Shown: in pieces, positions 106-54,205 of the stretch | Position numbering within the stretch: the first letter of the stretch is position 1 | Layout of the letters: every line of letters starts with the position of its first letter | From: Tardiphaga alba | GTDB taxonomy: Bacteria; Pseudomonadota; Alphaproteobacteria; Rhizobiales; Xanthobacteraceae | NCBI RefSeq assembly: GCF_018279705.1 | Contig: NZ_CP036498.1 | Coordinates: 5,287,001 to 5,351,000, forward strand | DNA: 64,000 nt | Reading direction: 5' to 3' | The notes under the pieces: model-generated | The model's database searches: none | Told to the model about the DNA's origin: nothing | The model's input: only the letters and a program-made list of their open reading frames with translations | Translations under genes and position numbers: made by a program

Positions 106-1160
106 ATGACGACTGCCGCCACCCAAAAAATTCCCGTGACCGTGCTGACTGGCTATCTCGGCGCCGGCAAGACCACGCTGCTGAATCGCATCCTCACCGA
201 GAACCACGGCAAGAAATACGCCGTCATCGTCAATGAATTCGGCGAGATCGGCATCGACAACGACCTCATCATCGGCGCCGATGAGGAAGTGTTCGAGATG
301 AACAATGGCTGCGTCTGCTGTACCGTCCGCGGCGACCTCGTGCGCATCCTCGAAGGCCTGATGAAGCGCAAGGGCAAATTCGACGCCATCATCGTCGAGA
401 CCACGGGCCTCGCTGACCCGGCGCCGGTTGCCCAGACCTTCTTCGTCGATGAAGACGTGCAGGCCAATGCGCGGCTCGATGCCGTCGTCACCGTGGCCGA
501 TGCCAAGTGGTTGAGCGACCGCCTCAAGGACGCGCCGGAAGCCAAGAACCAGATCGCCTTTGCCGACGTCATCGTCCTCAACAAGACCGATCTCGTCACG
601 CCGCCGGAGCTCGCGGAGGTCGAAGCCCGCATCCGTGCGATCAATCCCTATGCCAAGCTGCATCGCACCACGCGCGCGCAGGTGAAGCTGGAAGACGTGC
701 TCGACCGTGGCGCCTTCGACCTCGACCGCATCCTCGAGATCGAACCGGAATTCCTCAACGCCGACGATCACGATCACCACCATCATGATCACGACCATGG
801 CCACGATCATCACCATCATCATGGCCACGACCACGGTCACGGGCTGAAGCACTATCACGACGAGGACATGCAATCGCTGTCGCTGCGCACCGACATGGCG
901 CTCGATCCCTCGACTTTCATGCCCTGGCTGCAGGACCTAATGGCCAAGGAAGGCGGCAGGATCCTGCGTTCCAAGGCATCATCTCATTCTCCGGCGATGA
1001 CGAGCGCTATGTGTTCCAGGGCGTGCACATGATGCTGGAAGGCGATCACCAGCGCGCATGGAAGGATGACGAGAAGCGCGAAAGCCGCCTCGTCTTCATT
1101 GGCCGCGAATTGCCCGAGCAGCTGATCCGCGACGGCTTCGCACAGATCATTCCGTCCTGA
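106..1160 (+). pseudogene. CobW/G3E-family metal-chaperone GTPase, frameshifted near its C-terminus
   Basis: This is a G3E GTPase of the CobW/YjiA type, which uses GTP hydrolysis to deliver a metal ion to client proteins in the cytoplasm. The start at 106 follows a GGAG. The P-loop GYLGAGKTT is at residues 16-24, the CVCC metal-binding motif at 69-72, and NKTD at about 159. A His/Asp-rich loop lies at about residues 221-253 (bases 766-864), as in zinc or cobalt chaperones. A single G is missing at about 975-977: the frame reads ILRSK and then leaves the family sequence. Shifting by one base restores a normal CobW C-terminal domain down to a TGA at 1158-1160 (351 aa). That stop overlaps the ATG of the WD40 gene (TGATG), which supports the restored frame. 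As sequenced, the frame ends early at 1032. A sequencing error is more likely than decay. Confidence 0.88.
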
Positions 1161-2179
1161 TGTCCGATTTCAATCCGCTCAAGGAGCAAGAATCGATCGT
1201 CTCCGTCACCGACCGCGTAGTCGGAGCGACGATCGGTGCCGCGGTCTCCGCCGTGCATTTTTTCGGCGACAAGGCCGCCTTTGTCGGCGCCGAGGAAAAG
1301 GTCACGCTGGTCGATCCCGATGGCAGTGCGACGCCGGTCGAGGTCGCCTTCGGCGCGATCCTTTGCAGCGCCAGCGACGGCAAGCGGATCGTGATGGGGT
1401 GCGACGACGGCAAGGTCGTCGCTCTCGATCGCGACGGCGCGGTCTCGACCTTCGCCACCGACGCCAAACGCCGCTGGATCGACAATGTCGCGCTGCATCC
1501 CGACGGCGCTGTGGCGTGGTCGGCCGGCAAAACGGCCTTTGTGCAGGCGCCGAAAGGCGAGCTCAAATTCTTCGACGTGCCGACAACCGTCGGCGGTCTC
1601 GCTTTCGCGCCGAAGGGCCTGCGGCTTGGCATCGCGCACTACAACGGCGTGACGCTGTGGTTTCCCAACATGGCCGGCAGCGCCGAAGTGCTGGAATGGC
1701 AGGGCTCGCATCTCGGCGTCACCTTCAGCCCGGACAACAAATTCCTCGTCACGGCGATGCATGAACCCGCCCTGCACGGCTGGCGGCTCGCCGATGGCAA
1801 GCATATGCGCATGACCGGCTATCCCGCCCGCGTGCGCTCGATCGGCTGGACAGCGGGCGGCAAGGGCCTTGCGACCTCCGGCGCCGATACGGTGATCGTC
1901 TGGCCATTCACGACCAAGGACGGCCCGATGGGCAAGGAGCCGGCGATGCTGGCCCCGCTCAAGGCGAAGGTCACCATGGTCGCCTGTCATCCCAAGCAGG
2001 ACATTCTTGCTTGCGGCTATAGCGACGGCACGATTTTGATGGTGCGACTGGTCGATGGCGCAGAAATTCTCGTTCGCGCCAACAAGGGTGAGCCAGTGAC
2101 GGCCCTCGCCTGGAACGCGCGCGGCTCGCTGCTCGCCTTCGCCGATCAGAACGGCGATGCGGGGCTGCTCGCCGTCTAG
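1160..2179 (+). CDS. WD40 repeat protein coupled to CobW GTPase
   Basis: A 339-residue cytoplasmic protein without a signal peptide. It is built of beta-propeller repeats, visible as recurring blade endings such as VALDRDG, VTLWFPN, VIVWPF and ILMVRLVDG. WD40 propellers are protein-interaction platforms, and the exact role of this one is not known. The ATG shares a base with the stop of the restored CobW frame, so the two are translationally coupled. Such CobW-WD40 neighbours occur in rhizobia near zinc-uptake genes, so a role in metal allocation is a reasonable inference. A hairpin at 2272-2298 follows. Confidence 0.85.
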   Translation: MSDFNPLKEQESIVSVTDRVVGATIGAAVSAVHFFGDKAAFVGAEEKVTLVDPDGSATPVEVAFGAILCSASDGKRIVMGCDDGKVVALDRDGAVSTFATDAKRRWIDNVALHPDGAVAWSAGKTAFVQAPKGELKFFDVPTTVGGLAFAPKGLRLGIAHYNGVTLWFPNMAGSAEVLEWQGSHLGVTFSPDNKFLVTAMHEPALHGWRLADGKHMRMTGYPARVRSIGWTAGGKGLATSGADTVIVWPFTTKDGPMGKEPAMLAPLKAKVTMVACHPKQDILACGYSDGTILMVRLVDGAEILVRANKGEPVTALAWNARGSLLAFADQNGDAGLLAV

Positions 2180-2271
2180 CTAGCTCACGCCAGCGTAACA
2201 CCGCCGGGGAGAGTTGCTCATGCATCTCTCCCACCGTGACGGGTTTCATGATCTCCCCGCTTTGACTGGTT

Positions 2272-2301
2272 CCTCTCCCGTGCTAATCGAGGGAGAGGTT
2301 T
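2272..2301 (+). terminator. Hairpin between the WD40 gene and the copper cluster
   Basis: CCTCTCCC (2272-2279) pairs with GGGAGAGG (2291-2298) around an 11-base loop, and a short TTT follows. It lies 90 bases after the WD40 stop. The 3' arm also supplies the GGAGAGG that probably serves as ribosome-binding site for the GTG start at 2308, so the hairpin could also affect initiation. Termination is only a possibility because the T-run is short. Confidence 0.4.
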
Positions 2302-2307
2302 GAACCT

Positions 2308-2691: not shown

Positions 2692-2757
2692 CGTCCCACG
2701 ACGCCTTGCGCCGCGCATCTACGCGCGCTCAGTTCAATCCCGGTGGAGTTTCACCTC

Positions 2758-5009: not shown

Positions 5010-5972
5010 ATGACGAACCGCTCCACGCTGCTGCTTATCGCTGCGCTCGGCACAGCCAGCGCACCGGCCTTTGCCCATGTGTTCGTGCAGAGTGGCACGG
5101 CCACGGTCGGCGGATCGTATCGCGCCGTGCTGGCCGTGCCGCATGGTTGCGGTGCCTCGCCGACGACAAAGATCACCGTGCAGATTCCCGAGGGCATGAT
5201 CGCGGTGAAACCGATGCCGAAGCCGGGCTGGCTGATCGAGACCAAGAAAGGTCCGTATGCGCAGAGCTACGACTTCATGCATGGCATGAAGGCATCCGAG
5301 GGCATCAAGCAGATTTCGTGGACGGGGAAACTCGAGAACGACTTCTATGACGAGTTCGTCTTCTCGGCCTACCTGCCGGCTTCCCTGAAAGCCGATGCGC
5401 CGCTTTACCTGCCGACCCTGCAGACCTGCGAGAACGGCTCCGAAGACTGGGCACAGATTCCCGCAGCCGGACAGGATTCGCACAGCCTGAAGTCACCCGC
5501 ACCGGCAGTGCGCCTCGCAGCCGCGCCTGCGAAGGACGCGATGGCGCAGATGGCCGGCATGATCCATGCGGGCGACCTGATGATCTCAGCGCCATGGACG
5601 CGCGCGACGCCACCGGCAGCCAAGGTGGCGGGCGGCTATCTCACGGTGACCAACAACGGAAAGAGCAGCGACAGGCTGATCGGCGGCTCGTTCGCTGGCG
5701 GCAGCCGGATCGAAGTGCACGAAATGAGCGTCACCGATGGCGTGATGAAGATGCGCCCGTTGAATGCTGGCCTGGAGATCAAGCCGGGCGCCACGGTCAA
5801 GCTCGAGCCCGGCGGCTATCACCTGATGCTGATGGACCTGAAGAAGCCATTCGCGAAAGGCGAAAAGATCAAGGCACAACTACAGTTCGAGAAGGCCGGC
5901 AAGGTCGATGTCGAGCTCGACGTGAATGCCGTCGGAGCATCGGCGCCTGCTGGTGGCGGACACGCCCACTAG
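5010..5972 (+). CDS. YcnI (DUF1775)-PCu(A)C fusion, periplasmic copper chaperone
   Basis: A 320-residue exported protein. The ATG at 5010 is chosen because AAAGGA lies six bases upstream; an earlier ATG at 4968 lacks a site and would put 14 charged residues before the signal peptide. Cleavage after PAFA would leave His as residue 1 of the mature protein, the copper ligand of the YcnI (DUF1775) domain (about residues 20-165). A linker leads to a PCu(A)C domain (about 185-310) with the Cu(I) motif HEM..GVMKM..GGYHLML. The C-terminus ends in GGGHAH, which may add a metal site. Two copper-binding modules in one chain would allow handover between them. It is 45 bases after the TonB receptor and probably in the same operon. 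Confidence 0.9.
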   Translation: MTNRSTLLLIAALGTASAPAFAHVFVQSGTATVGGSYRAVLAVPHGCGASPTTKITVQIPEGMIAVKPMPKPGWLIETKKGPYAQSYDFMHGMKASEGIKQISWTGKLENDFYDEFVFSAYLPASLKADAPLYLPTLQTCENGSEDWAQIPAAGQDSHSLKSPAPAVRLAAAPAKDAMAQMAGMIHAGDLMISAPWTRATPPAAKVAGGYLTVTNNGKSSDRLIGGSFAGGSRIEVHEMSVTDGVMKMRPLNAGLEIKPGATVKLEPGGYHLMLMDLKKPFAKGEKIKAQLQFEKAGKVDVELDVNAVGASAPAGGGHAH

Positions 5973-6035
5973 ACGGGTTCACTCATCGAAAGATGAACGA
6001 AACGAGATGGGGTCGCGCAGATCGCGCGGCCCCTG

Positions 6036-6257
6036 TCAGCAACTGCTGCGATCGACGACCACGTCGCCCCAATCCAGCGGCCGCGATTCCACGCGCACCA
6101 GCTTCGCTGCTCCGCAGTGGCTGCATTCGAACGAGCGGGTCTCGAACCCCTCGAACTGATCAATGGACTTCAGCAGAATGCGTGTTCGGCAACGATCGCA
6201 TTTCAGGTGACCAGTGCGAATATTGTCATTGTTGAAAGAGTGCCCACGGGGCGACAT
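6036..6257 (-). CDS. Small zinc-ribbon-like protein, function unknown
   Basis: A 73-residue protein with two Cys pairs, CDRCR near residue 20 and CSHCG near residue 45, spaced as in a zinc ribbon, with FETRSFEC between them. Short proteins of this layout are frequent in Bradyrhizobium genomes and have no assigned role. The ribosome-binding site is weak (GAGG about eight bases upstream). It stands alone between convergent and divergent neighbours. The Cys pattern is the main support. Confidence 0.6.
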   Translation of the reverse strand: MSPRGHSFNNDNIRTGHLKCDRCRTRILLKSIDQFEGFETRSFECSHCGAAKLVRVESRPLDWGDVVVDRSSC

Positions 6258-6553
6258 GTGGAAAACCTCGACTGGGCATTAGCGCCCGAGAGAACGGCCG
6301 TATGTTCTGAAACAATATTGAGGCAAAGCAGAATAATGTCGGAAACAGCTACGAATCAGCACTTCTGAGGTTTCGGAGCATTTAACGATTTTTGATAGCT
6401 TGCAATCGAACAAGCCGCTATTCGCCCCCACAATCGCGTGTGGAGTGCGTGAACTATAGTCGCATATCACACGGCAGCATGACCTGTGGTCGATAGTGCA
6501 CTGCGGCGCCATCGTCCCGTTTCGTTTTGATCACCTTAGTCGGTCAGGACCAG
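6258..6553. other. Non-coding stretch, relatively AT-rich
   Basis: About 300 bases between the zinc-ribbon gene and the 3' end of the protease-like gene. Open frames here lack ribosome-binding sites and recognisable protein sequence. I see no convincing repeat, terminator or RNA. It probably includes the promoter of the zinc-ribbon gene. Confidence 0.4.
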
Positions 6554-8678: not shown

Positions 8679-8927
8679 CACATCCTCCAGATCGAACATC
8701 ACGTGGCGCCGCGCGATAGCCCGCACATCTCTTCGCCCGTGATCGCTTTCATAGGTACTTAAACCCGCAGCGATGGAAATGTAATCAGTCCATAAAATTA
8801 ATCGCGAATTGCAGAAAGGCTTCGTTGGCTTTGATTCTGTTTTGTAGTGGCTGCAACAGTGAGAACTGCTGCGGCCATGCCGCGAACCGACGCGCCAGCC
8901 GCAGCATAGCGGTGTGGAGTATCAATC

Positions 8928-10361
8928 ATGCGTACGGCCTCGCTTGTCCTCTTGTCGGCCGTCTCCATCACCCCAGCTTTCGCACAAGGCATCGATACCA
9001 CAGGAACACTCGGGCTGCGCGGCAGCGACACCAGCCTTGTGGTTCGCGGGCGCCAACAACCCAACATGCAGCCGAGCGCACCATCACGGCCCGTTGCCGA
9101 CGACGCCTCGCTGACGGACACGATCGCACCATCAGCGCCTTACAAGGGGCACGAATTTGCGGATGGCACGCTGCGCCTCGGCATCACCGCAGCGACGATG
9201 TATGACGACAACGTCTTTGCCGGCCGCACCTTGCGGCCATCCGACACCGTGTTCATTGGTCGCCCGGAATTCTCGTGGGTCAAGCAAGGCAGCGGCTACG
9301 GCGTCGGCATCGACGGCTATCTCGAAGCCCGACAATATGTGAAATTCGAATCCGAGAACCAGTTGAACGGATCGGTCGGCGGCAGCTTTACGCTGATGCC
9401 AGACAATGACACGCAAGTCATCGGCAATGCGCGTTACATCCACGCGCACCTGGAGCGCGGCACGTCGGAGACGATCGGCCCCGGCGACATCCTCCTCAGC
9501 ACGGCCTTCGACCGTCCGATTTCATATGACCAGGGCGTCGGCTCGCTCGCACTCAACAAGCGCTTTGATCGATGGTGGACGTCTGTCGGCGCGGCAGGCT
9601 CTGTCGTCGCTTACAAGGACCCTACCATTGGCGATCTCAACATCGATCTGAGTTATGCCGAAGGCACGATCGCCGTGGTGAACGGACGCCTCGGCTATGT
9701 GGTTGCACCACAGACGAGCGTCTTCGTGGAGGCCGCAGGCAATACGCGGGACTGGAAAGTCGGCATCTTCGACTCCACCGGCTATCGCACCACCGGTGGC
9801 GTCCTGTTCGAGCAAGGCCCGAACGCGCGGCTGAAAGGCGAAGTCTGGGCTGGCTACATGAATCAGAGCTACAACGGCATCAGCTTCCAGAACGTATCGA
9901 GCTGGACCTACGGCGCCTCGCTGGCCTTCCTGTTCACCGATCAATTGACCGGTACCATCGAAGGCAGGCGCGAAGCCAAGGAGGCGGCTTTGAGCCTCGG
10001 CCTGATCGGCCCCACCACGATCGGCGCCAATGCAGCCGTGTGCTCCGCGGGCGCGTCCTGCGTCAGTGCTATCCAGTCATCGGTGAGCGGCCGTCTCGAC
10101 TACAAGCTGCTGCCGAATCTGGTGGTCGGCGCCGGGGCATCCTTCGTGGTTGACGACTATCTCGGCGAAGCCGCAGGCGGACGTGTCGACCGCACCATCA
10201 GCCCGCTGGCCTCGGTCAAGTATTTCCCGAGCGACCAGTTGGCATTCGGCTTCGACTATCGGCGCGTGAATTACGATCCGTCCGGAGGATCGGCAGCCGG
10301 CGTCAGCGCGCTCTCCTACTATCGCAACCTCTATCTCGTCTCAGCGAACGGCAAGTTCTGA
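8928..10361 (+). CDS. Outer-membrane beta-barrel protein (BBP2_2 type)
   Basis: A 477-residue protein with a clear signal peptide cleaved near AFAQ, a short Pro-rich N-terminal segment, then a region of alternating amphipathic strands (VGIDGYLEARQYVKF, FGFDYRRVNYDPSG) ending in LYLVSANGKF with terminal Phe, typical of an outer-membrane barrel. It resembles the putative beta-barrel porin 2 family, often found near polysaccharide secretion genes. No such genes adjoin here. The next gene, convergent with a 23-base gap, encodes the Gly-rich repeat protein. Confidence 0.8.
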   Translation: MRTASLVLLSAVSITPAFAQGIDTTGTLGLRGSDTSLVVRGRQQPNMQPSAPSRPVADDASLTDTIAPSAPYKGHEFADGTLRLGITAATMYDDNVFAGRTLRPSDTVFIGRPEFSWVKQGSGYGVGIDGYLEARQYVKFESENQLNGSVGGSFTLMPDNDTQVIGNARYIHAHLERGTSETIGPGDILLSTAFDRPISYDQGVGSLALNKRFDRWWTSVGAAGSVVAYKDPTIGDLNIDLSYAEGTIAVVNGRLGYVVAPQTSVFVEAAGNTRDWKVGIFDSTGYRTTGGVLFEQGPNARLKGEVWAGYMNQSYNGISFQNVSSWTYGASLAFLFTDQLTGTIEGRREAKEAALSLGLIGPTTIGANAAVCSAGASCVSAIQSSVSGRLDYKLLPNLVVGAGASFVVDDYLGEAAGGRVDRTISPLASVKYFPSDQLAFGFDYRRVNYDPSGGSAAGVSALSYYRNLYLVSANGKF

Positions 10362-10384
10362 TCGCCGGCTGCTCGCCGCCAAAC

Positions 10385-12262
10385 TCAATGCGTCGCCGCC
10401 TGCTTGCCGCGCACGCGATCGACAAGCTTGCGACACTGCATCAGGATGTTGCGGCGATACAGCGCCGGCTCGCGCAGAATGCCGACGCAACGACTGACAG
10501 CGGCTTCGCCATTGCCGTCGCTCGCGATCAGCGACGTAAAGCCGCCGATGGTAACACCGCCACCACCACCTCCTCCTCCGCCGCCACCGCCGTTGCCGGG
10601 ATTACCCGCACCGGGGCCACCGCCATTACCCGGCGATCCACCGCCCGGATTGTTGCCACCGGGATTGTTGCCGCCGGGATTTCCGCCGGGGCCGCCGCTG
10701 CCGCCACCATTGCCGATATTCACGGTCGCCAGTGAACCCGACGGCCCCGGCCCGGCATTCAGCACATTGGCGACGATCCCACCGCCAGTCGATGGCGTGC
10801 CGGATGTGGCCGTCCCGCCCGCATTGCCATTGGCAATATTCACCGTGCCGAGCGTGCCGGATGCCCCGGGCGTTGCATTCAGAATGTTCGCGGCAAGCGC
10901 GCCACCATTGCTGCCGCCCGCACCGCCAGTCGATGAACCTGAGCCGGCTCCTGCGCCGTTCAACGCATTCACCGTCGCGAGTCCACCGGATGGTCCCGGC
11001 GTCGCGTTCAGAACATTTGCACCGACAAGACCGCCGCCTGCAGCCGTACCGGACGCTGGCGCACCTGTTCCACCTCCCGCACCGTTCAGTGCATTCACCG
11101 TGGCCAGGCTACCGGACGGCCCCGGCGTCGCGTTCAAAACATTCGCTCCGACCAGACCGCCGCCTGCAGCCGCACCGGACGCTGGCGCACCTGTTCCGGC
11201 GCCCGCACCATTCAGTACATTCACCGTGGCAATACCACCGGACGGCCCCGGCGCGGCATTCAGCACATTCGCGGTTACTGCACCGCCGCTCGCGCCTGCC
11301 CCCGGTGCAGGTGCGCCGGTCGCAGCACCCGCGCCGTTCAGTGCATTGACTGTCGCGAGACCGCCGGAGGGACCCGGCGTTGCGTTCAGCACATTGGCGG
11401 TGACAGCACTTCGCGATGCGGCTTCGCTGCCAGCGGCACCGCCCGATGCCGGCCGTTGACCGTTGAGCACATTCACTGTCGCCAAGGATCCGCGCGAACC
11501 TGTCGTGGCATTGCCGACATTGACGGCAGCCAGTGTTCCGTCGCGTCCTTCCGGCGACGCCTTCCGGCTGCCTTGACGGTTCAGCACATTGACATTGGCG
11601 AGACGACCGCGACCGGTCGAGCTCGCACTCAGTGCATTTGCCCCGATCAACGGACGCTCGCTACGCGCTGCACGGCTGCCCGATCCACCGACCGAAACTT
11701 CAGCCGCCCGCGCCGCGCGTGCAATCGCGCGCGCCTGGCGCGGACTGACATAGATCGGTGCTCCGCCGCCTAGTCCCAGCCGCGGGCGCGCACCTGCGCC
11801 ATCACCGAGTTGCGTGCCACCCGAGAAGAACCCGGCGCCCCCGCCAAAGCCCGTGCCGCCGCTGACCGGCCCGGCACCGACACGAACATCGGTCGCGCTC
11901 ACGCCGCTGCCGCCCACATTGACATCGCCGACACCCACGCCGACCGAGCCGGCGCTCACACCCACGCCGCCAACGCCGAGGCCGCCTGCACCGACGCCGA
12001 CGCTGCCGACACCAACGCCGACGCTCCCCGCGGTGACGCCGACACCACCCAGCCCTACGCCGCCCGTACCGACGCTCACACCGCCGACACCCACACCCAC
12101 GCCGCCGACGGCCACGCCGGTCGAACCGATGCTCACACCGCCTGGTCCCGCGCCGATCGTCGGCAAGCGAATGACCTGCGCCATGGCGCCTGCCGAGCCA
12201 AGCGCTGCCAGAGCGACACCTGCAAACAATGCGCGATGGATGTTGTGAATGGTGGATCGCAT
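10385..12262 (-). CDS. Secreted Gly-rich repeat protein (42-residue VN-LN repeats)
   Basis: A 625-residue low-complexity exported protein. The start at 12262 follows GGGAG by about seven bases. A signal peptide (residues 1-29) ends in AMAQ. Residues about 35-125 are Gly/Val repeats (GVGVGxxGVxVG). Then come five to six copies of a roughly 42-residue unit with two strand-like motifs, ANVLNATPGPSG and LATVNALNGAG, separated by Gly/Ala/Pro linkers. A Gly/Asn/Pro tract with 11 consecutive Gly residues follows. The last about 50 residues are non-repetitive with two Cys (SRCVGIL and LMQCRKLV). Function unknown; a surface, matrix or adhesive protein is inferred from composition. It has no homology to a named family that I can recognise. 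Confidence 0.75.
   Translation of the reverse strand: MRSTIHNIHRALFAGVALAALGSAGAMAQVIRLPTIGAGPGGVSIGSTGVAVGGVGVGVGGVSVGTGGVGLGGVGVTAGSVGVGVGSVGVGAGGLGVGGVGVSAGSVGVGVGDVNVGGSGVSATDVRVGAGPVSGGTGFGGGAGFFSGGTQLGDGAGARPRLGLGGGAPIYVSPRQARAIARAARAAEVSVGGSGSRAARSERPLIGANALSASSTGRGRLANVNVLNRQGSRKASPEGRDGTLAAVNVGNATTGSRGSLATVNVLNGQRPASGGAAGSEAASRSAVTANVLNATPGPSGGLATVNALNGAGAATGAPAPGAGASGGAVTANVLNAAPGPSGGIATVNVLNGAGAGTGAPASGAAAGGGLVGANVLNATPGPSGSLATVNALNGAGGGTGAPASGTAAGGGLVGANVLNATPGPSGGLATVNALNGAGAGSGSSTGGAGGSNGGALAANILNATPGASGTLGTVNIANGNAGGTATSGTPSTGGGIVANVLNAGPGPSGSLATVNIGNGGGSGGPGGNPGGNNPGGNNPGGGSPGNGGGPGAGNPGNGGGGGGGGGGGGVTIGGFTSLIASDGNGEAAVSRCVGILREPALYRRNILMQCRKLVDRVRGKQAATH
10700..11408 (-). repeat. 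Tandem 126-bp coding repeat in the Gly-rich protein gene
   Basis: Five to six in-frame units of about 126 bases (42 codons). The two closest units, around 11031 and 11157, start with the same 16-base string 126 bases apart and differ at only a few positions over about 50 bases. Outer units are more diverged (41-43 codons). Copy number could change by recombination without breaking the frame. Confidence 0.8.
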
Positions 12263-12344
12263 GGCTCTGCTCCCGTCCGGTCGCATCAGCGCGACCGGCG
12301 GATTAAAGCGTGCGAAATTGTGGACGTTCCTAACGCGAAGCGAT

Positions 12345-12359
12345 CACCGATAATCGGTA
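12345..12359. promoter_or_regulatory. Candidate operator upstream of the Gly-rich protein gene
   Basis: ACCGATAATCGGT (12346-12358) is a perfect 6+1+6 palindrome, 84-96 bases before the start at 12262, in an AT-richer intergenic stretch (12263-12537). No cognate regulator is recognised. It is the only strong palindrome in that stretch. Confidence 0.35.
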
Positions 12360-12537
12360 TCAATGCTTCGTTACTTCACGCGATTAAGTACCAGACAAAG
12401 GCATCTCGATCTGTACTGGTAGATAGTTGCGCGAATAAATCCGAAGCCTCATACGAAGCGCGATGCTTGACTCCACGACATTCGGTAGATGTGTAGTTGC
12501 GCGACTGCGCACAACACAACGGCCGAACAATCTGGGC

Positions 12538-13095: not shown

Positions 13096-13319
13096 GTAAC
13101 GCTCCTGACTCCACAATTCGACTGCGCGAAGCAGCCTGTCATCACATACTACAGGCAGCGTGACAGGGTTGTGAAGGGCATAGCTCTGGTCTATCCCCTC
13201 CGCAAAAGCATGCCGCAATCCCGGCTTTTTCCGCTACATCGGGTGGTCTCACGAGAGGGCTGCCGCTAGCCGCGGGACGCGAGCCCTGCTTGACGCGCGC
13301 CACGTCCGAAAGCTGCCTG

Positions 13320-18185: not shown

Positions 18186-18964
18186 TCATGTCACATAGAT
18201 ATTGCGGGCCAACATATAGAGCGCCACGAGGATAATGATAACCGCAAAAACCACGTTCAGCGCCCCGCGCCGCAGCGACAGCGCGCGGGCCGTGGCGGTC
18301 CCGATGACGCCGCCCACCAGCCCGCCGAGAATGAACACCAGCGCAAGCGTCCAGGAGATCAATCCGGACCAGGCATAGCTCGCAGCCGTGGTGAGGCCGA
18401 ATGCGGTCACCGCCACCAGCGAGGATGAGATCGCGCTCATGATCGACATGCCGGTGGCCAGCATCAGCGCCGGCACGATCAGGAAGCCGCCCCCGATGCC
18501 GAAGAAGCCGGACAAGGTCCCCGTGACGAGGCCGAGGCCGAGCAGCGCCGGCGTATTCGCAGCGCTGATATCGACACGATGCGCACCGACCCGCGCCCGC
18601 GTCTTCAGCATCAGCACGGCGATCACCAGCATAAGCCCGCCGAACAGCGCCAGCAGATTGTGCCCGTCCATCTGCTTGCCCAGAATCGAGCCGCCAAACG
18701 CGCCGACGATGCCGGCCGCGGCAAACACCAGCGCGCAGGACCAGTGCACATTGCCGCCGCGCGCGTGATTGCCGAGATTGACCGCGGCATTCGCCGCCAC
18801 CGCGATGGCGCTGGTGCCGATCGCCACGTGGGGATTGGGCACGCCCACCACATAGACCATCAACGGCACGGCGAGAATCGAGCCGCCGCCCCGACGAGGC
18901 CGAGCGAAAATCCCACCAGTGCGCCGGAGCCGAGCCCCAGCACGCTTTGCATCATCGTGATCAT
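18186..18964 (-). pseudogene. TauE/SafE-family permease, frameshifted near its N-terminus
   Basis: An inner-membrane permease of the sulfite/organosulfonate (TauE/SafE, DUF81) family with eight expected helices; motifs include HVAIGTSAIAVAANA and GFFGIGGGFLIVPALML. From 18869 downward the frame is intact. The normal N-terminus (MQSVLGLGSGALVGFSLGL) is found one frame away, starting between 18952 and 18964. The junction, expected VGGGGSILAVPLM, lacks one G/C at about 18889-18892 (GTC GG- GGC GGC GGC TCG). Adding one base gives 259 aa. As sequenced, only a GTG start inside the first helix (18869) remains. Probably a consensus error. The substrate is not known. Confidence 0.83.
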
Positions 18965-23094: not shown

Positions 23095-23185
23095 ATTCAC
23101 GCGAACATTCGCGCGACCTGAAACCGAATTTCAACAGAGACGCTCTATGGGCTGTCCCGTCGACAAGCGATCGGGATGATCTGAC

Positions 23186-24403
23186 ATGCGTATGATCTGG
23201 GGTTTCTGCGTTCTTCTGGCCGTCCTGATCCAGAGCGCGCCTGTCAGCGCCCAGGATAGCCGGATCGTCAGGCTGTCCCCGGACATCCAGTATGAATTCA
23301 TCGCGCGCTGGGACGTGGATCGCCTCAACAAGATCCTGCAGGTCGATACACCGAATTTTGCCGGCATTCCGGTGACCTACAGCCCGGCCCGCAACGGCGT
23401 CCGGCTCTATCGCGTCACCTATTCCTCGGTCGTGCCGGAGCATGGCAACAAGCCGACCACGGCCTCCGGCCTGCTCGCCATCCCCGAAAATGGCGGGCCG
23501 TCATTCCCGATGGTGTCGTATCAGCACGGCACGGTTTACGGAAAGCAGGAGGTCCCCTCCTTTCCCGACCAGTCGTCGGAAACGCAATTGATGATCGCGC
23601 AATTCGCCGGCCAGGGTTACGTGCTGATCGGCGCCGACTATTTCGGCCTCGGCACCTCGACCGAGCCGGAAGGCTATATGGTCAAGGCCAGCCATCAGCA
23701 GGCGACCTATGACATGCTGACGGCGAGCCGCGCCGTGCTCGCCCATCTCAAGCTCAGCACGACCAAACTGTTTCTCGGCGGCTGGTCGCAGGGCGGCTTC
23801 GTCACCATGGCCATGCTTGAAAAGCTCGAGCGCTCAGGTTTGGCAGTCGATGCGACGGCAACGGCGAGCGCGCCGCTCGACGTCTTCGTCGCGCTCAACG
23901 GCTTTCTCAACTTCCCGCGCAAGAACGACGCCTCCTGGGTGACGTCGCTGTTCATCCTCTCGGCATTCTCGTTCGAGAACTATTACAACGTGCCCGGCCT
24001 CGCGCGCTCGGTGATTGCGGCGGAGCATTACGAGCTGGCGCGCAAAGCCTATATGCGCGAACCCTATGATGCCACGCAGGTGCCATCGGATCTGCGCAAG
24101 CTGATCCGGCCGAACTATTTCGACCCGCAATTCTTCTCCGCCTCGGCCTATGGCCGCCTCGCAGCGGAAACCACGGCCTATCGCTGGATCATCAAATCGC
24201 CGGTACGCAACTATTTCGGCGAGAGCGACGAGGTCATCAGCGTCGGCCTTGGCCAGCTCGGCATGAATTATCAACGCGCGATCGGCAACGGTAATCCTGC
24301 CGTCGAGGCGCTATCGACCGGCGCGACCAGCCATCGCGGTACATTCGCGACCGCCGTTCCGAAATGGAAAGCATGGTTCGACGGAATCGCCACGGCGCCT
24401 TGA
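23186..24403 (+). CDS. Secreted alpha/beta hydrolase (lipase/esterase-like)
   Basis: A 405-residue exported hydrolase; the signal peptide is cleaved near VSAQ. The N-terminal about 90 residues precede a core domain with MVSYQHGT and a nucleophile elbow GWSQGG. Candidate Asp in YFGESDEVIS and His in GATSHRGTF complete the triad. The order and spacing recall secretory lipases. The substrate is not known. It lies between tRNA-Leu and a second exported enzyme gene on the same strand, 57 bases apart. Confidence 0.82.
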   Translation: MRMIWGFCVLLAVLIQSAPVSAQDSRIVRLSPDIQYEFIARWDVDRLNKILQVDTPNFAGIPVTYSPARNGVRLYRVTYSSVVPEHGNKPTTASGLLAIPENGGPSFPMVSYQHGTVYGKQEVPSFPDQSSETQLMIAQFAGQGYVLIGADYFGLGTSTEPEGYMVKASHQQATYDMLTASRAVLAHLKLSTTKLFLGGWSQGGFVTMAMLEKLERSGLAVDATATASAPLDVFVALNGFLNFPRKNDASWVTSLFILSAFSFENYYNVPGLARSVIAAEHYELARKAYMREPYDATQVPSDLRKLIRPNYFDPQFFSASAYGRLAAETTAYRWIIKSPVRNYFGESDEVISVGLGQLGMNYQRAIGNGNPAVEALSTGATSHRGTFATAVPKWKAWFDGIATAP

Positions 24404-24460
24404 TTGCATCGGCCTGATCTGCTGGGGTCTGCTTCGGGCAGGACCCAGCACGAGGGCGCG

Positions 24461-25735
24461 ATGAAGATGATCGACCGGCGCACGCTTCTGCAAGGCAGCG
24501 GAGCACTCCTGCTGCTCCGATCATCCCCTGCGCGGGCAGCGCCCCTGCCCGGTCCGACGGATACATTTACCGACAGTGTCGGCGTCAATGTTCACATCAG
24601 CAGCGAACCTTATGCACCGAATTTCGAGCGGTTCTTCGATCTGCTGGACAAGAGCGGCATCCGACATCTGCGCGATGAACTGAGGCCCAGCAACGATCTC
24701 GCACGCTGGCGCAGGCTCGCTGACCGCCTTGGCGTCATGTTCAACATTCCGGTATCGCCCGCGACCAACACCGTGGCGGAGATGATGTCCTATCTCGATG
24801 CATTCGGTGTCGAACGGGTGTCGAGCATCGAGGGACAGAACGAGGGCGACAGCCCGTGGTTCATGTCGCTGCCATTGGCCAAATCGGGCTGGAGCAATGT
24901 CGTCGTAGACTATCAGCGCGACGTGCATCGCGCCTTGCGCGCGCGGTACACGGCCGAACAACTGCCGCTGCTGTCGCCGAGCGTGATCAACTGGAAGCCC
25001 GCCGACGTGGCGCTGCTGCGCGGCGCTGCGCAATATAGCGATGTCGTCGCGATCCATTCCTACGTGCAAAAGGCACAGGAGCCGGAGACGACGGACGACT
25101 ACGCCGCGGTCTCCTGGTATCTCAAGAACATGCGCGACGCGTTCAAGCCGGGCGCGCCGGTGATGGTCACCGAGGCCGGCTATTGCAATGTCGTGAAGCC
25201 CGGCAGCGCCGGTGTCGGTGAAGTCGCGTCCGGCATCTACATGCCGCGCATGCTGCTCAACAATTTTCGCCTCGGAATCTTGCGCACCTATCTCTACGAA
25301 TTCTTCGATGGCGGCATCGATCCGAATGAAGGCGAACATCACTGGGGGCTCGTGCGCAACGATCTCACACCGAAGCCGGCCTATGACGCTATCCGCAATC
25401 TCCTTGCGATCCTGAAGGGCGCAAGGCGCGCGGGCGACAATCAGCCATTGCGACTCGAGACACGTTCGCTCGAATTGCGGCACATCGCATTCGAGGACGC
25501 ACAGGGAAAGCCTTTGCTCGCCGTCTGGCGCGCGGTGCGCTGCTGGGACGTGGCCAAGGCCGATGACATCGAGGTACCCACGCGGTCGGTCGGCATCAAT
25601 GTCGAGGGACCCGGCACGGAGTTGATCGTGAACCGGCCGAACGATGGCGCCGGTTGGGAGCGCATCCCCATCACCGATGGCCGGGCCAGAATCCCGCTCG
25701 ACGGCAAGGTCGCCATCATCAGCCTTGCGGCTTGA
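24461..25735 (+). CDS. Exported glycoside-hydrolase-like (clan A TIM barrel) protein
   Basis: A 424-residue protein. The start at 24461 follows GAGGG; the upstream frame has no signal. The N-terminus has a Tat-type signal (IDRRTLLQGSGALLLL). The TIM-barrel part shows SIEGQNEGDSPWF, where NE supplies the acid/base Glu, and VMVTEAGYCN, where TE supplies the nucleophile Glu, both as in clan GH-A enzymes. The C-terminal about 100 residues form a beta domain. It probably hydrolyses a beta-linked sugar polymer outside the cytoplasm. The precise family (GH5/GH39-like) is not resolved. Confidence 0.78.
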   Translation: MKMIDRRTLLQGSGALLLLRSSPARAAPLPGPTDTFTDSVGVNVHISSEPYAPNFERFFDLLDKSGIRHLRDELRPSNDLARWRRLADRLGVMFNIPVSPATNTVAEMMSYLDAFGVERVSSIEGQNEGDSPWFMSLPLAKSGWSNVVVDYQRDVHRALRARYTAEQLPLLSPSVINWKPADVALLRGAAQYSDVVAIHSYVQKAQEPETTDDYAAVSWYLKNMRDAFKPGAPVMVTEAGYCNVVKPGSAGVGEVASGIYMPRMLLNNFRLGILRTYLYEFFDGGIDPNEGEHHWGLVRNDLTPKPAYDAIRNLLAILKGARRAGDNQPLRLETRSLELRHIAFEDAQGKPLLAVWRAVRCWDVAKADDIEVPTRSVGINVEGPGTELIVNRPNDGAGWERIPITDGRARIPLDGKVAIISLAA

Positions 25736-26741: not shown

Positions 26742-27946
26742 CTACGCCATCTCGTCGGCCCGCTTCCATTTGGGAAACGGGTCCGGCAGCTTGGCCCAAT
26801 CCGCGATCTCCATGCCGGGCTTGCCATCCACGAGACATGCATCGAGTCTGCCGCGCAGGCCAGCTTCGTCCATGCCGGTGCCGATGAAGACGATCTCCTG
26901 GCGACGATCGCCATAGATGTCGTTCCAGTTCTTCTTCAACGACTGCCGCCAATATGGATCGTTCGGCCAGCGCTCTGCGGGAATGTTCGCCCACCAGAAG
27001 CCCATGCCTTCGGTGCGCACGATGGCGCCGGCCTGGCTCAGCTCGCCGACCCATTGCGGCCGCGTCGCCAGCCAGAAATGCCCCTTGCTGCGGATCACGC
27101 CGCCCCAGCTCTCGCGCAGGAACGCCTGGAATTTGGCGGGATCGAACGGCCGCCGCGCGCGATAGACGAAATTGCTGACGCCGTATTCCTCGGTTTCCGG
27201 AACATGATCGGCGAAACCGTAGAGTTCCTTGTACCAGAGCGGATGCTGCTGCGCCCGCTCGAAGTCGAACAGGCCGGTATCGAGCACGCGATCGAACGGC
27301 ACGTCGGCAAAATCAGCCTCAATGATCTCGGCTTCCGGGTTCAGCGCACAGATGATTTTTCGCGCCGCGTCGCATTGCGCGGGTGTGGCATCGTTGACCT
27401 TGTTGAGCACGACCACATCGGCGAACTCGATCTGCTCCACCAGCAGATCCACCAGCCGTCGCTGGTCATTGTCCAGCGCTTCACCACGGTCCTCGAGAAA
27501 ATCGGTCGAGGAATAGTCCTTCAAGAGGTTCACCGCATCGACCACGGTCACCATCGTGTCCAGCCGAGCGACATCGGAGAGGCTGTCGCCATTCTCGTCG
27601 CGGAAATCGAACGTCGCCGCCACCGGCAGCGGCTCCGCGATCCCCGTGGATTCGATCAGCAGATAATCGTAGCGGCCGCCTTCCGCCAAAGCGCGCACTT
27701 CCTTGAGTAGGTCATCGCGCAGCGTGCAGCAGATGCAGCCATTGGTCATCTCGACCAGCTTCTCATCCGTTCGCGAAAGATTGGCACCGCCATCCCTCAC
27801 CAGATCCGCATCGATGTTCACTTCGCTCATGTCGTTCACGATCACCGCCACCTTCAGCCCGTGGCGGTTGTTCAGGATGTGATTCAGCAAAGTGGTCTTT
27901 CCAGCCCGAGGAAACCGGACAGCACTGTGACGGGGAGTTTTCGCAT
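26742..27946 (-). pseudogene. CobW-family zinc-chaperone GTPase, frameshifted inside the P-loop
   Basis: A G3E GTPase of the CobW/ZigA class with a C-terminal CobW_C domain (WGGVIRSKGHFWLATRP). It has NGCICCTLRDDLL, STGIAEPLPV and VVLNKVN. In the given sequence the P-loop reads FPRAGKTT with an unrelated N-terminus up to 28001. One base away, ATG 27946 opens RKLPVTVLSGFLG, and adding one G in the GGG at 27905-27907 restores GFLGAGKTT and a 401-residue protein. Since the P-loop is essential, this is probably a consensus error. A Zur-like palindrome about 75 bases upstream suggests expression under zinc limitation. Confidence 0.85.
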
Positions 27947-38311: not shown

Positions 38312-39103
38312 CTAGCGTCGCTCGATCACCAGGCTTTGCACGGCGCGGCCAAAATAGCCGTTCACATCCGCCAGCTTGGACGCCGCGAGCCCGCTACCGT
38401 CAGGCCCGATCCAGGTCTCTGAATCCAGCAGGATCCAGTCGCCCACCGGTGGCCGTGCCATGCTGACGGAGAGGTCGGCATTCAGAAAGGTCCATTCCTT
38501 GAAGCTAAGCACGGAGGACGAGCCGTTGCTGAAATCCGACGCGATCACCGCCCGCATCGCCTGGGACATCGGCTGCCCCTCGATGATTGCCCGATTGGCG
38601 CGATACCAGATCGCGCCGGGCCCGAGCGTCAGGAAGCCGCCATGCACGGCGCGGATGGTCATGCCGGAGACGAACGCGCTGCTGTGGTCCTTCGGCTCGG
38701 AGAGACCGGGCGCATCCGGCAGCGGCACCGTGAGCGGTGCATCCTTGATGTCAGCCGGCAGCGGCTGCTCCTCGACGCGCACCTTCAGCACCGTCGCCGT
38801 CGTGACGACCGTGCCGTTGGACAGCAGGCGAATGCCGACCAGTTGAATTTTGCGGCCTTCGCGTAGCACCTCGATCTCATAGGTCAGCGGCGCCACCGGC
38901 ACCGGCCGCATCAGATCGATGGTGACCCGCGTCACCGCCATCGGCGATGACGTTGGCTGTTGCTCCGCCAGCCACGTCACCAGCGCCGAGGGCGCCGAGC
39001 CGTGCTGCATATGCGGATTCCACGGCCCCGCCGCATGCGGGCTGGTGATGATGCGATTGCCGTCCAAGCGATAGACAGCATCACTCACGGGATGTTTGTC
39101 CAT
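38312..39103 (-). CDS. Thioesterase-family (acyl-CoA hotdog) protein
   Basis: A 263-residue cytoplasmic protein with two hotdog halves, similar to the TesB-like thioesterase family (NPHMQHGSAPSALVTWLAEQQ, VTIDLMRPVPVAPL, then a second half with DFSNGSSSVLSFKEWTFLNADLSVSM). These enzymes hydrolyse acyl-CoA. The start is ATG 39103, which shares a base with the stop of the nitronate monooxygenase gene (TGATG); a GTG three bases earlier is possible. The coupling suggests a shared catabolic pathway. Confidence 0.8.
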   Translation of the reverse strand: MDKHPVSDAVYRLDGNRIITSPHAAGPWNPHMQHGSAPSALVTWLAEQQPTSSPMAVTRVTIDLMRPVPVAPLTYEIEVLREGRKIQLVGIRLLSNGTVVTTATVLKVRVEEQPLPADIKDAPLTVPLPDAPGLSEPKDHSSAFVSGMTIRAVHGGFLTLGPGAIWYRANRAIIEGQPMSQAMRAVIASDFSNGSSSVLSFKEWTFLNADLSVSMARPPVGDWILLDSETWIGPDGSGLAASKLADVNGYFGRAVQSLVIERR

Positions 39104-40070
39104 CACAGCGCCGGATCGATCGCTTCGTCATATTCCTTCTTGAGGCGCGCGACCAATTCAGCCACCGGCACCACTTTCTTGACGCTGCCGATGCCTTGGC
39201 CGCTGCCCCAGATTTCCTTCCAGGCCTTCGGTTTCGCTCGCTCGCCATTGGCATCGGTGCCGAAGTTCATCTTGGACGGATCGGAGACGGGCAGATTGTC
39301 GGGGTCCATGCCGGCGGCGACGATGGACGGCTTCAGATAGTTGCCGTGCACGCCGGTGAAGAGGTTGGAATAGACGATGTCCTGCGCGGCCGAGGACGCG
39401 ATCATGTCCTTGTAGCCCTGCACTGCATTGGCTTCTTCGGTCGCGATGAAGGCCGAGCCGATATAGGCGAAGTCAGCGCCGAGCACGCGCGCGGCCTTGA
39501 TGGCGCGGCCATTGCCGATGGCGCCGGACAACGCGATCGGACCGTCGAACCACGCCCGCGTTTCGGCAACGAAAGCGAGCGGCGAGAGTTCGCCGGCATG
39601 ACCACCCGCACCGGCGGCAACGAGGATGAGGCCATCGGCGCCCTTCTCGATCGCCTTATGGGCGAAGCGCTGGTTGATAACGTCGTGAAACACGATGCCA
39701 CCCCAGCCATGAGCGGCCTGATTGAGCTCCTCGCGCGCGCCGAGCGAGGTGATGATCATCGGCACCTTGTGCTTCTCGCAAAGCGCCAGATCCTGATCGA
39801 GGCGGTTGTTGGATTTGTGGACGATCTGGTTGACCGCGAATGGCGCCGACAGGCGATCCGGATTCGCCCTGTCATGCGCGGCAAGTTCTTCCTTGATCCG
39901 GTGCAGCCATTCGTCGAGCAGCGCCGCCGGGCGCGCATTGAGCGCCGGAAACGACCCCACGATCCCGGCCTTGCACTGCGCGATGACGAGATCCGGCCCG
40001 AGATAATGAACAGGGGAGAGCCGATCACGGGCAGCGACAGGCGGTTTTTGAACAAAGCCGGCATGGACAT
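39103..40070 (-). pseudogene. Nitronate monooxygenase (2-nitropropane dioxygenase-like), frameshifted near its N-terminus
   Basis: An FMN-dependent TIM-barrel enzyme of the NMO family, oxidising nitronates; it has LVAAGAGGHAG and GAIGNGRAIKAARVLGADFAYIG. The true N-terminus MSMPALFKNRLSLPVIGSP starts at ATG 40070, seven bases after GAGGA, but the frame leaves the family after FIISG. One G/C is missing at about 39997 (TCG GG- CCG GAT). Adding one base gives 322 aa. As sequenced, the downstream frame runs on from 40137 with unrelated codons. A consensus error is likely. It is coupled to the thioesterase gene. Confidence 0.83.
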
Positions 40071-45684: not shown

Positions 45685-46010
45685 GGAGCCAGACATGGTT
45701 GTCGTCGCCCGGCTCGACCGGGCGATCCAGTAGACATAAACGGTCGTGTTTACTGGGTCACCCGGTCCTAGCGCGCAATTGCGCGCATGGCCGGGTGACG
45801 ACAATTGAGTTTGCATCGCCGAACTTTGGCCCCTTTCCTCACCGATTTAACGCCATCGCCACTGTTCTGATGCTCCCGGCCGGTATAGGTTTGCTGCCAT
45901 CACTGCGTGACGGCGCAATCGATTTGAGAGCCACGAACCCTCATTGTCTTAAATTAGCTGCGCACGGTGCCGAGGCACTGCAGGCGGGCCGCCAAGACCG
46001 GAACCGGATA
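45685..46010. other. Non-coding region holding a dispersed repeat
   Basis: The 326 bases between ndvA and the carboxypeptidase gene. The first third is the family C repeat (45699-45805). The remainder can be read in frame with the carboxypeptidase but shows no signal peptide or family sequence, and I treat it as untranslated leader and promoter. Confidence 0.5.
45699..45805. repeat. Dispersed intergenic palindrome, family C copy 1
   Basis: TTGTCGTCGCCCGG at the left pairs with CCGGGTGACGACAA at the right. Inside are GTTTACTGGGTCACCCGGTCCT and the palindrome GCGCGCAATTGCGCGC. The same blocks occur, rearranged, at 50736-50858. Confidence 0.8.
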
Positions 46011-47474
46011 GTGCAGTTTCCCTCCGCCTCCCCTCGCTGGTCATTGAACTCGTTTGGTGCCGTCGTGGCGCTCGCGCTATGCGCATTGGCGCCGCGGACT
46101 GCGAGCGCCGAAGCGACGCTGGTGATCGAGGCCGACACCGGCAAGGTGTTGCAGGCAGAGAATGCCACCTATCCGTGGCACCCGGCGTCCGTGACCAAGA
46201 TCATGACCGCCTATGTGACGCTGAAGGCGGTGAAGGAAGGACGCATCCGCCTCGACTCCGTGTTCACGGTATCGCCGGTCTCGGCCTCCCAAGCGCCGTC
46301 GAAAATGGGGTTTGCCGCCGGTACCCAGATCACTGTCGAGAACGCCCTCACCATGATGATGGTGAAGTCGGCCAATGACATGGCCGCCGTGCTGGCCGAA
46401 GGCGTCGGCGGTTCCATCGACGGCTTCTCGGGCATGATGAACGCCAATGCCCAGCGGCTCGGCATGACGCAGACCCACTATGTCAATCCGAACGGCCTGC
46501 CAGCGGACGAGCAGGTGACCTCCGCGCGCGACCTCGCCATCCTCGCGCGTGCCGTCATCCGCGACCTGCCCGAATACGAATACTTCATGCACATCCCCGC
46601 GATGAAATTCGGCCGCCGCATCACCCCGAATTTCAACAAGCTGATCGGCCGCTATCCCGGCGCCGACGGTTTCAAGACCGGCTTCATCTGTGCCTCCGGC
46701 TACAACCTCGTCGCCTCCGCGACGCGCAACAACAAGCGCCTGATCGCCGTCGTGCTCGGCTCGACCTCCGGGCACGCCCGCGCCGTGAAGGCCGCGCAGC
46801 TGCTCGAAGCCGGTTTCGGCAACAGCAATGGCGGCCTGACTTGGCTGAAACCGGCACTCGGCACTGTCGATGCCATGGCTCCGATCGACGCCGCGCCGCC
46901 GAACCTGCGCGATGAGATGTGCGGACCGAAGCGCAAGCGCCAGGGTCCGATCAGCGATGAAGATGCCGTGGCCAGCAGCGAAGCCGGCAGCAACGCCGCA
47001 CTGTCGTTCTTCTCGGGTGGCTTACAGCCGCCGACATTGCGACCCGAGGACATGATGGCTGCGGCCGCAGCGCCCGTCGAACCGGTGATCGTCTATACCG
47101 GCCCGAAAAAGACCGGTGCCGACCTGATCGCCGCCAACGCGGTGGAAGAAGCCAAGCAGACCCCCAAAGCCAAAGGCAAAAAGGGCGCGAAAACCGCAGC
47201 GAAGAAGCCGGCTGCGACGGCAGATGCCAAACCTGCTGCCGATGCAAAACCTGCAGCCAAACCGGCAGCCAAGCCCGCCGCGCCAAAGCAGGCCGCAGCA
47301 AAACCCGACGCTGCACCGAAGCCGGCTGCAGCTGCCAAGCCTGCCGCAAAGCCAGCAGCGGCAGCTGCGACACCCGCACCCGCCAAGCCGAAGCCGGCAG
47401 CAGCCAAGCCGCCGGCGCCCAAGCCCGCGGCTACCGGTGAAGCCAAGCCGGCTGCGACAGCTCCGCGCAGCTAG
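46011..47474 (+). CDS. D-alanyl-D-alanine carboxypeptidase (penicillin-binding protein 5/6 type)
   Basis: A 487-residue exported enzyme trimming the terminal D-Ala of peptidoglycan stem peptides. The GTG at 46011 is chosen because the signal peptide (SLNSFGAVVALALCALAPRTASA) begins just after it; upstream codons run through a dispersed repeat. The active-site motifs are SVTK (after PWHPA), SAND and KTG (DGFKTGFIC). The C-terminal about 150 residues are Ala/Lys/Pro-rich (KPAAKPAAP repeats), probably a periplasmic wall-contacting tail. There is no C-terminal amphipathic anchor as in E. coli DacA. Confidence 0.9.
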   Translation: MQFPSASPRWSLNSFGAVVALALCALAPRTASAEATLVIEADTGKVLQAENATYPWHPASVTKIMTAYVTLKAVKEGRIRLDSVFTVSPVSASQAPSKMGFAAGTQITVENALTMMMVKSANDMAAVLAEGVGGSIDGFSGMMNANAQRLGMTQTHYVNPNGLPADEQVTSARDLAILARAVIRDLPEYEYFMHIPAMKFGRRITPNFNKLIGRYPGADGFKTGFICASGYNLVASATRNNKRLIAVVLGSTSGHARAVKAAQLLEAGFGNSNGGLTWLKPALGTVDAMAPIDAAPPNLRDEMCGPKRKRQGPISDEDAVASSEAGSNAALSFFSGGLQPPTLRPEDMMAAAAAPVEPVIVYTGPKKTGADLIAANAVEEAKQTPKAKGKKGAKTAAKKPAATADAKPAADAKPAAKPAAKPAAPKQAAAKPDAAPKPAAAAKPAAKPAAAAATPAPAKPKPAAAKPPAPKPAATGEAKPAATAPRS

Positions 47475-50052: not shown

Positions 50053-50055
50053 GTC

Positions 50056-50735: not shown

Positions 50736-50858
50736 TGTCGTCGCCCGGCCGTGCGCGCAATTGCGCGCTAGGACCGGGTGACCCAGTAGACACCGGCTTC
50801 GGTGATTATCTTCAAAGATAGCGTTTACTGGATCACCCGCTTTCGCGGGTGATGACAG
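50736..50858. repeat. Dispersed intergenic palindrome, family C copy 2
   Basis: The blocks TGTCGTCGCCCGG, GCGCGCAATTGCGCGC, GACCGGGTGACCCAGTAGAC, GTTTACTGGATCACCCG and GGGTGATGACAG are in part the same as those at 45699-45805 but in another order. It fills the gap between the convergent peroxiredoxin and rnhA genes. Confidence 0.78.
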
Positions 50859-50866
50859 TTAGAGCC

Positions 50867-52290: not shown

Positions 52291-52294
52291 GGCC

Positions 52295-53272
52295 TCACGC
52301 GGCGGCTTCGGGACGCAGCGAGCGCGGCAGCGGGAAGAATTCGTTTTCTTCCGCAGCAGACACCGTCTCCACATTCAGCGTGTAGCGCTGCGCGAAGGCA
52401 TCCATGATTTCCTCGACGATCACTTCCGGCGCCGATGCGCCCGCGGTGATGCCGAGGCTGGTGATGCCTTCGAACATGCCCCAGTCGAGATCGCTGGCGC
52501 GCTGCGCCAGCACCGACACGCGGCAGCCCTCGCGCTCGGCGACTTCGCGCAGACGCTGCGAGTTCGACGAGTTCGGTGCACCGACCACGATCAAGGCGTC
52601 CACCACCGGCGCTACCTTCTTTACCGCGAGCTGGCGGTTGGTGGTTGCGTAGCAGATGTCTTCCTTGTGCGGGCCGTTGATATTCGGGAAGCGCTCCTTG
52701 AGCACGGCCACGATTTCCGCGGTGTCGTCGATCGACAGCGTGGTCTGGGTCACGAAGGCCAGGTTGTCCGGATTCTTCGGCTGGAAGGTCTGGGCATCCT
52801 CGGCGGTCTCGATCAGTTCGACAGCGCCCGGCGGCAGCTGGCCGACAGTGCCGACCACTTCCGGGTGATGCGAATGACCGATCAGCAGGATTTCGCGGCC
52901 GCGCTTGAAGTGGATCGCGGCCTCGCGGTGCACCTTGGTCACCAGCGGGCAGGTCGCATCCAGCGAGAAGAAATTGCGCTGGCGCGCATCCTCGGGAACC
53001 GACTTCGGCACGCCATGGGCGGAGAACACGACCGGAGCGGTAGTATTATCCGGAATCTCAGCGAGTTCTTCGACAAAGATCGCGCCCTTGGTCTTCAGGC
53101 TGTCCACGACATATTTGTTATGGACGATCTCGTGGCGGACATAGACCGGCGCGCCGTGGATGGCCAATGCGCGTTCGACCGTATCGATTGCCCGGACCAC
53201 GCCGGCACAGAAGCCGCGCGGCGAACAAAGAACGATTTTCAGGGCGGGTTTGGTCATATCGGGGCGATCCAT
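52295..53272 (-). CDS. ispH: 4-hydroxy-3-methylbut-2-enyl diphosphate reductase
   Basis: A 325-residue [4Fe-4S] enzyme for the last step of the MEP isoprenoid pathway, giving IPP and DMAPP. The cluster cysteines are in PRGFCAGV (Cys22), [11 protein letters not shown] and a third near residue 210 (ICYATTNRQ). HGVPKSV and the [10 protein letters not shown] motif are also present. The start at 53272 has AAGG upstream; ATG 53257 ([10 protein letters not shown]) is equally close to family N-termini. It is first in an ispH-thrB-rnhA operon. Confidence 0.94.
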
Positions 53273-53504
53273 GTGCCTTGAGCGCCGCCCAAAAAAAGGC
53301 GCGCACCGTCAAATTGACGAAAATCAGCCAAAGGGCTTGTCTGCATAAGGACTTGGGGCCGGTTTACGGCGCTGTCAAGGCCGAAACGTTCGCCATTGCG
53401 CGTCAGCCCCGGCACAGCTTATATAGAAGGCTAATTCCCCGTCATCCCCGATGACCAGACGGCTCCGCCTCCTCGAGGTGGGCGGAGCGCAAAGGAGATT
53501 TGCC

Positions 53505-54205
53505 ATGAGCAATGCCCCGCTGATGCCAAAGGCGACGGCCGTGTGGCTGGTGGACAACACCGCGCTGACCTTCGACCAGGTCGCCGATTTCACCAAAATG
53601 CACGTGCTCGAAGTCCGCGCCATTGCCGATGGCGACGCCGCCCAGGGCATCAAGGGCATGGATCCGATCTCGAACGGCCAATTGACCCGTGACGAGATCG
53701 AACGCGGCGAAAACGACGCGAATTACCGCCTGAAGCTCGAAGAGAGCAAGGTCGTGCTGCCGCCCGCCGCCAAGAAGAAGGGCCCGCGCTACACCCCGGT
53801 GTCGCGCCGCCACGAACGCCCCAGCGCGATCCTCTGGCTGGTCCGGAACCATCCGGAACTCAAGGATGCCCAGATCATGCGTCTGGTCGGCACCACCAAG
53901 ACCACCATCGCCTCGATCCGCGATCGCACCCACTGGAACGCGCAGACCCTAACCCCGATGGATCCGGTGACCCTCGGCCTGTGCTCGCAGCTCGAACTCG
54001 ATTTCGAAGTGCAGCGCGCCGCGAAGGAAAAGCCGCTGGACCAGCAGGCCTATGGGGCGCCACGCTGCTGCCGGCGTCGGAAACGACCCGCAAGGACGAG
54101 TACGAAGGCGCCGAGCGCGGCGACGACGATCTCAATGTGGATGCCGTGTTCGCGAAGCTGAAGGGCATCGGCGGCGGCAAGCCGCGCGACGAGGACGAAG
54201 AGTAG
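53505..54205 (+). pseudogene. trcR: TrcR/DUF1013-family cell-cycle regulator, frameshifted near the C-terminus
   Basis: An alphaproteobacterial regulator conserved alongside cell-cycle genes. AAAGGAG precedes the ATG at 53505. Residues 1-185 match DUF1013 (MPKATAVWLVDNTALTF, PRYTPVSRRHERPSAILWL, GTTKTTIASIRDRTHWN). After QQAYGA the frame leaves the family: one G/C is missing at about 54055 (TAT GGG GC- GCC ACG). The next frame continues ATLLPASETTRKDEYEGAE and ends in KPRDEDEE at 54205 (233 aa). As sequenced the frame ends at 54161. Because the protein is highly conserved, a consensus error is more likely than decay. Confidence 0.88.

Follow-up and report, generated by a model that had tools for sequence, protein, structure and literature searches.

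Five apparent frameshifts in a 64-kb segment of the Tardiphaga alba chromosome most likely reflect consensus errors at short G/C runs

Five genes in the window, the whole 64,000-base stretch of T. alba DNA that was analysed (G000:C1:5287001-5351000), appear frameshifted in the assembly. These frameshifts are very probably consensus errors of the assembly, and in the living organism the genes are most likely intact. Comparison with relatives argues strongly for an assembly artefact as the cause, so that the five events, otherwise ordinary, would most likely be a matter of sequencing or consensus and not of biology. The T. alba genome (G000) is a single contig of 5,857,905 bases. Two separate regions of the chromosome held single-base deletions specific to it; these lay at G/C runs, were commoner in longer runs and affected genes that are intact in relatives, which points to sequencing as their probable source. 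A long-read platform is suggested because the genome is a single contig and because of the type of error. The basecaller or polisher would then under-count bases in short G/C runs, and the loss of one base at a time per run would leave a frameshift in the consensus. The five genes were as follows:

106..1160, plus strand: CobW-type GTPase gene (cobW1), PF02492 with PF07683 (CobW_C) in the other frame; frame switch at about 975
18186..18964, minus strand: TauE/SafE family permease gene (TauE), PF01925; frame switch at about 18890
26742..27946, minus strand: second CobW-type GTPase gene (cobW2), PF02492 and PF07683; frame switch at about 27904-27907
39103..40070, minus strand: nitronate monooxygenase family gene (NMO), PF03060; frame switch at about 39996-39999
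53505..54205, plus strand: trcR, PF06242 (DUF1013); frame switch at about 54056, past the domain

When the window was translated as it stands, both family halves of each gene were present in two frames, and the frame jumped at the reported places when intact ORFs of relatives were aligned to it. The original prediction that each gene changes frame once was borne out by this direct ORF reading and alignment. Its break points (about 976, 18890, 27906, 39997 and 54055) lay within a few bases of ours, and its restored lengths of 351, 259, 401, 322 and 233 aa matched the start and stop positions arithmetically. It had further held that one G or C is missing from a G/C run at each site. The loss of a single base was confirmed throughout; the identity of that base at TauE, NMO and TrcR could not be fixed from relatives, since some of them hold another base inside the run. 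G/C runs were present at all five sites, but in G000 they were short (2, 4, 3, 3 and 4 bases).

In cobW1, Pfam placed PF02492 in the first frame and the end of PF07683 in a short second-frame ORF. The matches of TauE to PF01925, cobW2 to PF02492 and NMO to PF03060 began at profile positions 24, 11 and 95, respectively; the late start in NMO may reflect distance from the model instead of the break. PF06242 was complete in the TrcR ORF, the break being 3' of the domain. The break in cobW2 adjoins what we take to be the P-loop, and this protein scored 585.8 bits against the NCBIfam ZigA model, under the model cut-off of 600. Codons matched those of the relative G013 equally well before and after the break: 19/21 and 18/20 in cobW1, 20/20 and 20/20 in NMO, and 19/21 and 19/20 in TrcR.

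Orthologues were sought with intact proteins of relatives as queries in 18 genomes of the genus including G000, that is, 17 relatives, for TrcR, TauE, cobW2 and NMO, and in 12 same-genus genomes for cobW1. TrcR was open across the site in 15 of the 17 relatives, up to residue 232 or 233 (the match in G009, which lies at a contig end, begins only with residue 11), and two had no match; in G000 it stops at residue 186. TauE was open over residues 1-258 or 1-259 in 14 relatives at 81-100% identity, while G006 and G015 yielded paralogues only (54-55% identity) and G004 had no match; coverage in G000 was residues 25-259. For cobW2, 12 relatives were open and five had no match at the cut-off (G000 covers residues 15-404). 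NMO was open from residue 36 or earlier in 16, with G015 lacking a match at the cut-off, and coverage in G000 was residues 56-359. In 11 of the 12 genomes, including G008, which has a stop further upstream, a single open frame held both halves of cobW1, and the twelfth, G003, was cut by a contig end; cobW1 of G013 was intact too. Intact ORFs measured 259 aa for TauE (G001, G016), 233 aa for TrcR (G012) and, with earlier starts, 404 aa for cobW2 (G012, G009) and 359 aa for NMO (G012, G013, G009). In a protein search with the TrcR ORF, the closest 233-aa proteins among the best 120 of 8000 candidates were up to 98% identical over the first 85% of the query, so the match ends at the break. In the window, G013, G012, G009, G001 and G016 mostly shared the gene order of G000, and for G013 and G001 this held along much of a surrounding 464 kb stretch. 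A segment of 5,896 bases in G002 was identical to Tardiphaga sp. P9-11, which places these genomes in Tardiphaga or the equivalent GTDB genus (Nitrobacteraceae). Relatives with the same frameshifts, which would have told against an assembly error, were looked for and none was found: site-spanning same-genus orthologues were open.

The window held one probable further event of the same kind:

45995..45996, no strand assigned: probable further one-base deletion, one base fewer than in five of five covering relatives (four passed the filter)

The gene ending at 47474 likely starts at about 46011, as judged from the ORFs of G012 and G009, so this site lies upstream of the start and is not coding; the corresponding ORFs of G013, G001 and G016 begin further upstream. 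No further coding frameshift was accepted in the 53,854 of 64,000 bases for which at least two relatives gave cover (1-2258, 5971-6552, 8680-12536 and 23095-24535 had fewer). Other flagged frame changes, including those near 6.6-8.1, 13.2, 16.3, 49.4, 52.3 and 59.6 kb, were judged to be antisense ORFs, variable starts or gene ends, and were not accepted because of low identity or overlap with Pfam-supported genes. Among ten ORFs scanned, three had no Pfam match and one had only matches below the cut-off. Near 13257, upstream of a CLC channel gene, one base differed against G013 alone. Just before the window, at G000:C1:5286613, one more base has probably been lost; the gene concerned has a 300-aa orthologue in G016 that presumably resembles a metal-binding ABC substrate protein.

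Indels were then counted in two regions of the one contig, the 464 kb stretch (region A) and 3660001-3780000 (region B, 120 kb, around rpoB), in orthologous ORFs of two comparators aligned to a focal genome. Events less than 75 bases from the 5' end or less than 60 from the 3' end were left out, and a passing event had 60% amino-acid agreement on both sides. This filter replaced that of a first gene-by-gene scan with a lax end filter, in which many of the control events fell close to the 5' ends of ORFs and resembled mis-extended ORFs. The comparator pair G016 and G001 was also dropped as too close (378 gene pairs); it gave 31 passing events in 233 G000 genes against 14 in 224 G013 genes, many of them resembling conserved antisense or non-coding ORFs.

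Against G013 and G016, G000 showed 13 isolated one-base deletions in 314 genes of both regions, three in the window and ten outside it, and no isolated one-base insertion passed the filter in these genes (two were among the raw events). In the 227 genes of region A (221.9 kb), 24 raw events were counted and 15 passed, including ten isolated one-base deletions, three of them in the window; the five uncounted passing rows were multi-gap events in repetitive stretches (149360 twice, 173030 twice, 337608). Region B gave eight raw and three passing events in 87 genes (79.4 kb), all of them one-base deletions. The mirrored control, G013 against G000 and G016, had no isolated one-base deletion and one one-base insertion in 315 genes: 17 raw events and one passing (a 23-base deletion in a repeat, no one-base event) in 229 genes of region A, and four raw and one passing, the insertion, in 86 genes of region B. 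G001 against G013 and G016 had six raw and no passing events in 215 genes. G016 was not clean. In region A (212 genes, against G013 and G001) five of its six raw events passed, namely three one-base deletions, one one-base insertion and a 19-base insertion; in region B (87 genes, against G000 and G013) seven of 12 passed, more than the three of G000 there, namely four one-base insertions, one one-base deletion and two longer events. Its events, unlike those of G000, were thus not all deletions. G016, a two-contig assembly, may possibly carry errors of its own in these one-base indels.

The ten affected genes outside the window, scanned through their G013 orthologues, encode an AMP-binding enzyme, a CoxE-like VWA protein, a LysR regulator, an N-formylglutamate amidohydrolase, a short-chain dehydrogenase, a DnaJ-domain protein, an acetyltransferase, an AzlC protein and a ClpA-like ATPase, the tenth having no Pfam match; no common function was seen among them. 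The ClpA-like gene, of 798 aa in G013, is frameshifted alike at G000:C1:3690422.

Sequence context was evaluated at 16 sites: the 13 deletions, TauE and cobW2, which fell outside the 13 because of the end filter or for want of an orthologue, and 199613, which other comparators had revealed. A G/C run of at least 3 lay within 3 bases of 14 of the 16 sites, compared with 15.7% of random coding positions (p=5e-10), and a run of 4 at seven sites against 2.6% expected. Runs with identical 4-base flanks and a longer copy of at least 3 were also compared between genomes, both regions summed. With this limit of at least 3, set after inspection of the table, G/C runs of G000 were shorter than those of G013 in 17 cases and longer in 2 (p=0.0007), or in 12 and 2 without the five frameshift sites (p=0.013); A/T runs were shorter in 4 and longer in 7. 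The share of runs shorter in G000 rose with run length, from 8 of 1385 runs of 3 to 4 of 166 runs of 4 and 4 of 20 runs of 5. The ratio of shorter to longer G/C runs was 4:1 against G001, and 5:2 and 4:2 against G016. Over all run lengths the G/C bias reached p<0.05 in two of five comparisons with G000 (p 0.12, 0.29, 0.039, 0.039 and 1), and genome pairs without G000 showed no significant run-length bias. Long G/C runs, of at least 6, were scarcer in G000 (13 in 464 kb) than in G013 (43 in 480 kb), G001 (28 in 470 kb) and G016 (32 in 470 kb), while A/T runs of at least 6 were similar in number (57, 62, 65 and 53, respectively). In region B the small counts of long G/C runs were 3, 7 and 3 for G000, G013 and G016, with no depletion relative to G016.

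The motif CCCGAG occurred at 4 of the 16 deletion sites over a background of about 1.7%, and 30 of 1000 permutations did as well at k=6; the figures for k=4 and k=5 were 42 and 131 of 1000, and the motif is a weak lead. It would be improbable that the errors mark a modified DNA motif around CCCGAG, betraying an uncharacterised methyltransferase specificity, instead of plain run undercalls. Modification-mediated nanopore errors, as far as described in the portion of PMC10687267 consulted, would be tied to a sequence context, as the CCCGAG bias might be, but the bias in G000 is weak.

G000 agreed with systematic long-read consensus error in several respects. The affected genes were intact in close relatives, the one-base indels were concentrated in homopolymers and rose with run length, at G/C runs only, and they were spread beyond one locus over the two regions, 464 and 120 kb, of one contig. 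In the parts seen of the Kastor paper (PMC12007338), the indels of the draft Pss508 were for the most part false deletions, which fragmented genes and were most frequent where four to five like bases preceded them; in those of the Homopolish paper (PMC8011154), the leftover systematic errors were mainly frame-shifting homopolymer indels. The one-base deletions of G000 resemble both accounts (PMC12007338, PMC8011154). Two differences were seen in the Kastor example, as far as these parts go: A/T runs were hit most and G/C runs about half as often, whereas the bias of G000 is at G/C runs, and 1101 genes of the draft were annotated as frameshifted only, against about 200 extrapolated for G000.

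Real gene decay, by which the five genes would be recent pseudogenes of the strain, is very unlikely. The frameshifts were seen only in G000, as decay would have it, and some of the genes may be dispensable: according to PMC12864828, TrcR is associated with RNA polymerase, and Caulobacter stays viable on rich medium when trcR is deleted in frame. Because the deletion is tolerated there, a broken trcR is not itself proof of error. Nothing in decay, however, would favour the loss of single G/C bases over insertions. Nonsense codons were few, with 1 in 227 and 1 in 87 genes of G000 against G013 and G016, compared with 4 in 229 and 0 in 86 for G013, giving no excess, and the codons past the breaks were conserved. 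Decay is disfavoured for these reasons, and the depletion of long G/C runs in the 464 kb stretch counts against it as well. The original prediction had likewise preferred assembly or read-consensus error to decay, a preference that the one-base deletion bias at G/C runs and the open frames of relatives support.

Still less probable would be a true mutator lineage, in which defective mismatch repair shrinks G/C runs in the living cell. Polymerase slippage would also give the dependence on run length, but slippage would be expected to insert bases as well and to act on A/T runs too, and neither tendency was seen against G013. A loss of mutS or mutL was not found in G000, where the MutS and MutL frames are open (912 and 641 aa). 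Programmed ribosomal frameshifting, transcriptional slippage or phase variation is hardly credible, although the switches do sit at short runs, since four unrelated families are affected, each of the proteins is read from one frame at that place in relatives, no two-frame arrangement of the five genes is conserved in them, and a run of only 2-4 bases is short for phase variation.

Consensus error thus remains the preferred reading, and its reach may extend over the whole genome. If the 13 clean sites are scaled up from the 301 kb of coding sequence that was aligned, with about 87% coding and an even rate assumed, approximately 200 falsely broken genes would be expected. If the sites are errors, claims of gene loss, pan-genome counts and metabolic models based on this T. 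alba assembly would be wrong at about that many genes.
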